Virus record (IMG/VR): IMGVR_UViG_3300023174_000557
Span: 1-27,096 of that record
Source: a virus
Strand: one strand, 5' to 3'
DNA: 27,096 bases
The notes under the pieces were generated by a model. The model was given only the letters and a program-made list of their open reading frames with translations. It was not told the origin of the DNA and made no database searches. Both the position numbers and the translations under genes were made by a program. This document shows positions 15,663 through 20,391 of this stretch, piece after piece (position 1 is the stretch's first letter; each line of letters begins with the position of its first letter).

Positions 15663-16085
15663 GGGGTAGGTATAGGCATTTGATTTCAGATATCAGGGAT
15701 AAATGGCACGTAGTCGGATGTCATCTACGACTTGAATCCACGGTGGTAAAATTTAAACGGCAACGTTTTGAACAAAATGTCTCTTGCTGGTCTTATTAGA
15801 CAAGACGAGACTGTATCTGTAGCTTAATTGTTATGATACCTTCGGGTCGGGAAGCATATAACCTAGGAACAGCAGCTTCGTAAGGTTTGACATATACCAG
15901 TAAAATGTGTCGGGAGTGACGGGTCAGAGCTCTTTAAAATAATTCTGAGACCAAGTTGTTTGCAGGTGGGTTTCTCACATATATCAAACCTGATATTTCG
16001 GAACATTGAGAACTAATGTTGTACTAAACGTGTAGTCATTTATTGTTGAATCGGAAAGACCGCAGTTCGAATCTGCGCTACTCCA
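15663..16085 (+). ncRNA. ssrA: Phage transfer-messenger RNA (tmRNA)
   Basis: This 423-nt gene frees stalled ribosomes and tags the nascent protein. The ends form an alanine-tRNA-like acceptor: GGGGTAG (15663-15669) pairs with CTACTCC (16078-16084), including the alanine-specifying G3-U70 wobble. The T-arm is CGCAG-TTCGAAT-CTGCG (16061-16077). The 3' part ACTAAACGTGTAG matches the ACUAAACAUGUAG block I recall from Bacteroides tmRNA. Two crossing helix pairs support H-type pseudoknots: GAAGC/GCTTC with AACCT/AGGTT (15851-15887), and TTCTCA/TGAGAA with AACAT/ATGTT (15972-16020). The segment before the tag, AAATTTAAACGGC, aligns with AGTTTAATTGGC of bacteroidal tmRNAs, placing the resume codon at GGC 15759. 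The reading frame then runs 22 sense codons to TAA at 15825, ending Val-Ser-Val-Ala, much longer than the usual 8-12. CCA is not encoded. It has its own promoter and terminator. Confidence 0.93.
15759..15827 (+). other. tmRNA tag reading frame, 22 codons, unusual end
   Basis: Predicted from the resume codon GGC to TAA. The tag begins Gly-Asn-Val-Leu-Asn and ends Asp-Glu-Thr-Val-Ser-Val-Ala. It lacks the usual ALAA/LAA end read by ClpX. The frame also contains inverted repeats (GTCTC...GAGAC), so part of it is probably folded. The other two frames stop early or lack an Ala-type end, but the resume site is inferred by alignment only. Confidence 0.65.
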
Positions 16086-16097
16086 CATCCACAATTA

Positions 16098-19360: not shown

Positions 19361-19771
19361 ATGAGTTTAAAAAAATTAATTAAAGAACATTTAATACTTG
19401 AAAAAAGAATTGGTCAAATCTCATCAAAAATAGAAGTTATTTTTTCATTTGATGTTGATAGAACAAACCACGCTTATGATAGAAAAACTAGAAATGATAT
19501 TGAATTATACGATGATAGAGAAATATCTAATTCAGAAATAACTGAAGTTATTAGTTTCGCTAAAAAAGAAATTGCTGAATATATTGTTAATGGTGAAATA
19601 ACTGAAGATACTAATTTTGTTGTTAGGTCGAGTAAATGGGGATTAGCAATTGCTATTGTTGCTAAACATATGGGTGGAACTTATTGGAAGTTATTAGTAA
19701 GGACTGTCTTTAGAGAATCAGGTCTTAATCCTTTTAGAGTTGGTAGAGACCAACTAGTTATTGATGTATAA
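19361..19771 (+). CDS. Unknown 136-aa protein with leader-like N-terminus
   Basis: It starts MSLKKLIKEHLILEKRIGQI, a basic amphipathic leader with LIKE and LILE sites of the (I/L)-x-E type cut by T4-like prohead proteases. The remainder has a TNHAYDRKTRNDIE segment (His-x-x-x-Arg), an acidic helix (EITEVISFAKKEIAEYIVNG), and two beta strands (WGLAIAIVAKHM, KLLVRTVF). This order loosely recalls small DUF4258/RelE-like RNase folds, in which a conserved His and Arg precede the sheet. That is a weak resemblance and I would not assign activity. It is monocistronic and ends at the small-RNA terminator region. Confidence 0.75.
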   Translation: MSLKKLIKEHLILEKRIGQISSKIEVIFSFDVDRTNHAYDRKTRNDIELYDDREISNSEITEVISFAKKEIAEYIVNGEITEDTNFVVRSSKWGLAIAIVAKHMGGTYWKLLVRTVFRESGLNPFRVGRDQLVIDV

Positions 19772-19814
19772 AAAAAGAGTAAGACTTTGTATCTGAATCG
19801 TTTCTGTCTCACTC
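19771..19814 (-). terminator. Terminator of the small RNA
   Basis: On the minus strand GAGTGAGAC (19806-19814) pairs with GTCTTACTC (19777-19785, one G-U pair), followed by TTTTTT. In the plus direction it may also end the 19361 gene, but no T run follows there. Confidence 0.8.
19786..19803. repeat. 18-nt direct repeat, copy 1
   Basis: Plus strand TTGTATCTGAATCGTTTC (from 19787, preceded by an extra T), in the loop of the terminator hairpin. An identical copy lies near 19857-19874. Confidence 0.85.
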
Positions 19815-19856
19815 TGAATTAGAATTTTTTCGCTCTAATTATTGTGACCGAATAAT

Positions 19857-19874
19857 TGTATCTGAATCGTTTCA
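19857..19874. repeat. 18-nt direct repeat, copy 2
   Basis: Plus strand TTGTATCTGAATCGTTTC, in the upper part of the 5' hairpin of the small RNA. The flanking bases differ from copy 1. Confidence 0.85.
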
Positions 19875-19887
19875 ATCAATCACAACA

Positions 19888-19918
19888 CAAAGATAATAAT
19901 TATTCTTGAACTACCAAA
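19888..19918 (-). promoter_or_regulatory. Perfect host-like promoter for the small RNA
   Basis: Coding strand TTTG (19915-19918), exactly 19 nt, TATCTTTG (19888-19895). It overlaps the 3' end of the gene ending at 19900 and can only serve the non-coding segment below it. Confidence 0.75.
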
Positions 19919-20391
19919 TCTTTTTTAAACCAATTTGGAATTTCTCTATTTTTCCATGTAGTAAATCCCGACTTAGCCCCCAAGTAGTAATTTCTATACG
20001 ACTCAATTGCGTCGTTAACTTTATATTCATCAGGCATAGCTAAAGCTGGTTTAGTTAAACCTTTGTCACAAATTTGTGCTTTATTTGTTACACACCACTC
20101 AATAACATCCTGTGATTTGTGTCGTTTACCGTAACGATAAGTATATTCTTTACAAAGTTCTAAACCAAGTTCACACAAGTATAGATAATTGGTTAATGAT
20201 TCTCTTGCCCATATCGCACAAGGGTGATTTTTATGGGATAACTTATATGGAACTTGAGGGGTGACTTGGGGGGTCATATGATGAACCCCACACAATAATT
20301 GTGCGGTCTCAAGTATCATCTTAACAACATGTTTGTCACAATGATATTCTGCACATTTTTTAACGTCCCAATCTAACAAAAATATATTCAT
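19900..20391 (-). CDS. Conserved phage protein, unknown function
   Basis: This 163-aa protein is of a type I recall as frequent in tailed-phage genomes but without a known activity. Conserved-looking blocks are AEYHCDKHVVKMILETAQLL near the N-terminus, SHKNHPCAIWARES, EYTYRYGKRHKS, ALAMPDEY and YRNYY...FTTWKNREIPNWF. Several His, Cys and acidic residues could form a metal or active site. No signal peptide is present. Its ATG follows the SPFH stop with one base between, so the two genes form one transcript driven by the promoter at 20956-20986. Confidence 0.8.
   Translation of the reverse strand: MNIFLLDWDVKKCAEYHCDKHVVKMILETAQLLCGVHHMTPQVTPQVPYKLSHKNHPCAIWARESLTNYLYLCELGLELCKEYTYRYGKRHKSQDVIEWCVTNKAQICDKGLTKPALAMPDEYKVNDAIESYRNYYLGAKSGFTTWKNREIPNWFKKDLVVQE

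Follow-up and report, generated by a model that had tools for sequence, protein, structure and literature searches.

The locus described here is, as judged by sequence comparison, a member of an undescribed family of phage RNAs, the unit of which is a hairpin with a variable but covarying stem and a near-invariant loop core, ACGAUUYAGAUAC, placed at a fixed distance behind a promoter. The RNA is predicted from sequence, and we infer the function of the family. The window (by which we mean the whole 27,096-nucleotide stretch analysed) is a 27-kb virus record that codes for a portal, a terminase large subunit, an M23 peptidase, a pyrimidine-dimer glycosylase and a Band-7 protein, together with 12 tRNA genes and one tmRNA. 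The tmRNA (15663–16088, plus strand; RF00023, 63 bits) was missed by ARAGORN, and tmRNAs are also present in the contigs L031, L167 and L174 (RF00023, 75–99 bits). The host is probably a member of the Bacteroidota, to judge from the promoter type only. All records used here are metagenomic, and most are fragments.

The small-RNA locus runs from 19918 to 19769 on the minus strand (Table 1). The gene at 19900–20391 (minus strand), which matches pyrimidine dimer glycosylase, overlaps the -33 box with its 3' end, and a plus-strand gene for a 136-aa protein (19361–19771; no PHROG or Pfam match) converges on the small RNA from the other side. The 18-mer GAAACGATTCAGATACAA is present in exactly two copies in the window; 0.05 matches with up to three mismatches are expected per window by chance, and two copies were seen in none of 100 shuffles. 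Folding of the minus strand gives three hairpins (-28.3 kcal/mol, z = -2.8), and each 18-mer copy forms the apical loop of its own hairpin, the stems of hairpins 1 and 3 being different; an earlier sequence-only reading had described the same arrangement, and its non-coding stretch of roughly 110 nt ending in a terminator corresponds to an RNA of about 115 nt in which hairpin 3 is followed by seven T residues. The single-sequence fold also contains a possible 5-bp pairing inside the loop of hairpin 1, which the alignment of relatives does not support.

Table 1. Features of the small-RNA locus, in window coordinates.
Feature	Position	Strand	Basis
Small RNA, ~115 nt, non-coding	19773..19887	-	Start assigned just behind the -7 box; covariance model and covariation
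Promoter TTTG-N19-TATCTTTG, Bacteroidota type	19888..19918	-	Sequence
-33 element TTTG	19918-19915	-	Sequence
-7 box TATCTTTG	19895-19888	-	Sequence
Hairpin 1, loop shows GAAACGATTCAGATACAA	19840..19887	-	Fold; helix 1 paired in 92.6% of cells
18-nt loop sequence, copy 1	19856..19873	-	Sequence
Hairpin 2, short, middle, AATTAGAGCGAAAAAATTCTAATT	19817..19840	-	Fold; 6/8 pairs with double changes
Hairpin 3, loop shows copy 2; stem is the terminator stem	19777..19814	-	Fold; 5/5 pairs with double changes
18-nt loop sequence, copy 2	19787..19804	-	Sequence
T-run of the intrinsic terminator (TTTTTTT)	19769..19776	-	Sequence

The promoter that had been read as pointing into this stretch is present as described, and the sequence after its -7 box is TGTTGTGATTGATTGAAACGATTCAGATACAATTATTCGGTCACAATAATTAGAGCGAAAAAATTCTAATTCAGAGTGAGACAGAAACGATTCAGATACAAAGTCTTACTCTTTTTTT. 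Among 49 distinct loci, the gap from the end of the -7 box to the loop core is exactly 17 nt in 33 and 20 nt in 12 (45 of the 49), with a further locus at 16 nt; by comparison, only 6.6% of random positions have any -7 box within 30 nt. Locus counts include near-identical contigs, the 49 being the distinct contexts among 96.

Structural support for the family comes from an alignment of 23 distinct three-hairpin RNAs, in which the 22 consensus pairs are 92% formed and 14 of them show double-sided changes. Covariation in the alignment scores 0.446; shuffled alignments score 0.240, slid versions never exceed 0.128, and none of 500 shuffles scored as high; the stems thus covary in homologous loci, the structural check that the sequence-only reading had proposed. 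A covariance model (R1) scores the window RNA at 106 bits (E 8e-19), although the window is one of the 23 seed sequences; E-values from this model are rough, and its best matches are its own seeds. Mean pairwise identity is 96% in both 13-nt cores, whereas the hairpin 1 and hairpin 3 stems reach 69%, and hairpin 2 and the other unpaired positions 65% each, so that the pattern of a kept loop and changing stems, first noted in the window, extends over the whole family. The core ACGATTYAGATAC (ACGAUUYAGAUAC) is invariant over 91 hairpin units save at position 3, where A replaces G in 3 units, and position 7, which is C, T or, once, A; the changes tolerated are mostly transitions. By comparison, 61 different 5' stem sequences occur among 70 distinct units. 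The relatives keep the terminator as well as both loops and the promoter; loss of the loops and promoter would have told against the earlier reading.

The exact 18-mer is found in 37 IMG/VR stretches; 81 contain the variant GRAACGATTCAGATACNA and 44 the T variant, with overlap between the sets. Most of these matches share the anatomy seen in the window; the rest, many of them GC-rich and within genes, are chance or coding matches, and four that lie inside a coding gene (L029, L054, L059 and L080) were set aside as coding coincidences. We also rejected a conserved peptide as the source of the repeat: one frame reads ETIQIQ, but a change of CAG to TAG is frequent in relatives, and in many of them the copy spacing is not a multiple of three. 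Three architectures are present: a three-hairpin form with copies 67–71 nt apart (the window, L001, L002, L020 and others), a short two-hairpin form lacking hairpin 2, with copies 40–53 nt apart (the L044 group, L010, L040, L095, L097 and L047), and a single-hairpin form (L005, L014, L031, L061, L078, L091, L101, L113, L114, L167, L174 and L281). The covariance model finds one stand-alone RNA per carrier genome, and none in three GOLLD-bearing phages that lack the motif. A scan of 84,980 bacterial and archaeal genomes gives only five occurrences of the pattern, none in a comparable setting and none as an intergenic hairpin, and this near-absence indicates that the motif belongs to phages; a covariance-model search of 148 Bacteroidota genomes for host copies, run with stricter filters and no positive control, likewise found none. 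No cultured or annotated phage was found to carry the motif, the one public record that does (LR745206.1) being unannotated, and the exact 18-mer was not found in the literature searched.

The single-hairpin forms connect the family to GOLLD, an RNA that to our knowledge has had no known function since its discovery. In L031, L101, L114/L132, L113/L133, L167 and L174 a single hairpin lies right behind a promoter, 0.5–0.9 kb upstream of the GOLLD 3' domain (RF02032, >320 bits); the L078 contig ends inside a recognisable GOLLD 5' domain, and the near-identical L061 stops before it. A 195-kb phage (G003) has a tandem pair of hairpins before GOLLD and a three-hairpin RNA 24 kb away, and leader hairpin and stand-alone RNA are both present in G006, G021, G022 and G024. 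In LR745206.1, a huge-phage record of 634,780 bases, the hairpin is located between tRNA genes and upstream of GOLLD (287 bits), and in L005, L014, L091, L105 and L108 it lies about 280–365 nt upstream of tRNA arrays. Over all motif loci, closeness to tRNA genes is not above chance within loci (9 of 36, with 7.8 expected). GOLLD is present in 9 of the 34 motif-bearing records checked, and in most GOLLD loci a different promoter-proximal hairpin, followed by GTTCTTTGA, stands where the motif loop would be; the motif is thus an optional companion that GOLLD does not need.

Several other elements were seen in the same leaders. A promoter-proximal hairpin with a conserved loop, ATTTGAAACTTATAGGTGATGAAAGATACTCGGTATTCAAAT, occupies the same position as the motif hairpin in L138, L141, L146, L148, L162, L168, L186 and L190, and is also present in L078 and L101; GOLLD leaders look like chains of promoter-plus-hairpin modules. 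A second conserved non-coding stretch of about 150 nt (CAGTCTAGGTCCGTAGGGCTACTGTTG...ATATTACC; no Rfam match) is found in the leaders of L113 (about 790–620, minus strand) and L174, and many phages have, directly upstream of GOLLD, a gene for a small conserved protein of about 45–60 aa, of the type MSEGTEVIENFIFYY...YGTKSVFIEK (e.g. L143, L160, L166 and L177). The sequence GTTCTTTGANATATT before GOLLD resembles GTTCATNGANATATTG of Bacteroidota rrn leaders (L284–L295), a resemblance that suggests possible rrn-type antitermination of GOLLD.

Our favoured reading, which we hold with about even confidence, is that an RNA-binding factor recognises the loop, acting in cis where the hairpin is part of a GOLLD or tRNA transcript and in trans through the free RNA, which would be a decoy or carrier. 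The factor, either phage-encoded or a host protein, would read the loop as single-stranded RNA; in cis the hairpin would bring it to untranslated phage transcripts, with consequences for stability, processing or read-through, and in trans the free RNA, having two sites and its own terminator, would titrate or carry the same factor. Since it has its own promoter, its own terminator and a convergent gene behind it, the window RNA should, from its anatomy, act in trans. Predicted GOLLD and tRNA-array transcripts begin with this hairpin too, which agrees with its being the recognition site of a factor that deals with phage RNAs that are not translated. A loop recogniser would accept hardly any alteration of the 13 unpaired letters, even between phages that differ greatly. 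The many GOLLD loci without the motif and the chance-level closeness to tRNA genes count against this reading. The sequence-only reading had proposed a repeated binding site, either for pairing with an mRNA or for titrating a protein; a recognition site fits our observations and protein titration has become the leading reading, while pairing with mRNA is unsupported.

A comparison of gene presence and absence aimed at a partner gene identified no binding factor, which also counts against the favoured reading; it mainly reflected common descent, since eight of the nine carriers used come from one syntenic phage group. A NusG domain (PF02357) was found in only one of 14 records (G001), which is also the only record with a Ro60 homologue, and both were rejected as shared partners. 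This 385-kb phage encodes the NusG-domain protein and a Ro60/TROVE-domain protein at 343775–344089 and 113095–113841. We regard as quite doubtful a narrower version of the factor-recognition reading, in which the loop hairpin and GOLLD belong to a single phage RNA system: a shared factor would read ACGAUUYAGAUAC on both GOLLD transcripts and the free RNA, and the small RNA, acting in trans, would thereby control or load the cage that GOLLD forms, or the cargo of that cage.

An alternative explanation, unlikely but still a substantial possibility, is that the RNA is a base-pairing regulator whose two loops are copies of one seed for a host or phage mRNA. A terminator together with identical, accessible loops on separate hairpins is typical of trans-acting regulators, and transitions of the kind seen in the core can preserve pairing to a fixed target through G-U pairs. 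However, the loop complement near start codons, which the sequence-only reading had suggested looking for, was not conserved in phages: across 60 phage ortholog families (each in at least 4 of 8 genomes), start-codon regions showed no excess complementarity relative to 60 shuffled seeds. Host mRNA complements were sought by pattern only in 198 Bacteroidota genomes; in 64 of these the 15-mer complement, taken in both orientations, has no match even when one mismatch is allowed. Pairing with GOLLD itself fares no better, complementarity being not above shuffles and similar in motif-bearing (mean z -0.52) and motif-free (-0.65) phages, and identical seeds in very different phages would demand an identical target. 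Host-specific mRNA targets of the loops are possible.

We consider it rather unlikely that the hairpin is a nascent-RNA element of the nut, put or LoaP type that loads elongation or antitermination factors for long untranslated RNAs, with the free RNA a decoy or by-product. The fixed distance of the hairpin from the promoter and the single hairpins that begin predicted GOLLD and tRNA-array transcripts are both in keeping with it, as is GTTCTTTGA, which follows immediately after the hairpin in G003 and is similar to the GTTC-A/T-TNGANATATTG element located about 150 nt before 16S in host rrn leaders; by general analogy with rrn leaders we take TNGANATATTG- and GTTCTTTGA-type elements to be boxA. 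But in the stand-alone RNA the hairpin itself forms the terminator and a convergent gene lies behind it, which leaves nothing to read through to. In addition, stand-alone RNAs lack GTTCTTTGA, most GOLLD leaders lack the loop, and no NusG-like gene is common to the carriers. Antitermination is attractive for the leader forms but leaves the terminated stand-alone RNA unexplained.

We think it very unlikely that GAUUYAGAUAC imitates the helix-24 (790) loop of 16S rRNA, GAUUAGAUAC, with one extra pyrimidine, and titrates a factor that binds the 30S subunit. Both are hairpin loops, CAGGATTAGATACCCTG is present in all Bacteroidota 16S sequences checked, and an equally good match to 16S is reached by only 2.2% of shuffled cores, although a value of 2% is weak given that several such comparisons were tried; moreover, all 91 units retain the extra position. 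A tRNA anticodon-loop mimic was also considered and rejected, there being a partial likeness to Ile GAU and Leu NAG loops but no anticodon stem. That the repeat is a DNA-level element or a chance repeat with no RNA function is extremely improbable: the RNA is known here from sequence alone, but covarying stems, a strand-specific promoter and terminator and conservation in distant phages all oppose such an origin.

The presence of the loop hairpin before GOLLD and tRNA arrays goes beyond what the sequence-only reading saw and is the most informative fact to emerge; the link to GOLLD is also the part that specialists would not expect. A near-invariant loop that the free RNA has in common with the beginnings of GOLLD and tRNA transcripts could serve directly as bait for a binder in infected cells, and offers a practical handle on the function of unexplained phage RNAs. 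Should the RNA prove to act as a decoy or in recruitment, large phages would have a new way of handling their own non-coding RNAs; irrespective of mechanism, the RNA constitutes a new and well-supported structured RNA family missing from Rfam. Rfam 15 gives no match at 19769–19918, the best permissive hit being potC at 17.4 bits against a threshold of 44, and none at the corresponding RNA in L010, L020, L038, L044 or L083.

Judging by the features tested in sequence, the RNA is not a member of the CsrB/RsmY, guanidine-II, ToxI or GOLLD families. It differs from the RNAs of type III toxin–antitoxin systems (ToxI-like) in that its copies are 40–71 nt apart with different flanks and no ToxN-like toxin gene is adjacent. 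Guanidine-II (mini-ykkC) RNAs similarly have two hairpins with matching conserved loops containing ACGA/ACGR, but in the present family the conserved loop measures about 18 nt, the main form is not a transporter-gene leader and there is no Rfam call. The single-hairpin forms resemble nut, put and LoaP leaders in following closely on the promoter of a long operon that is in part untranslated, some with a boxA-like element behind them, whereas this family also includes a stand-alone terminated RNA and no NusG-type antiterminator protein common to its carriers was found. GOLLD, too, is non-coding and occurs in large phages, commonly close to tRNA islands, and in several cases its leader holds the motif hairpin. 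It exceeds 800 nt and forms a 14-subunit cage (PMC12286853), in contrast to the 115-nt window RNA, which has no GOLLD domain and no RF02032 match. CsrB/RsmY-type RNAs also display the same short motif in several hairpin loops of one RNA, an arrangement suited to protein titration, but what is invariant in this family is the 13-nt core ACGAUUYAGAUAC and not GGA, the site of CsrA; the sequences are unrelated, and the bases before the core vary and need not contain GGA. By analogy, we rate the RNA as one that would work like a multi-hairpin titrating RNA and that represents a new RNA family.
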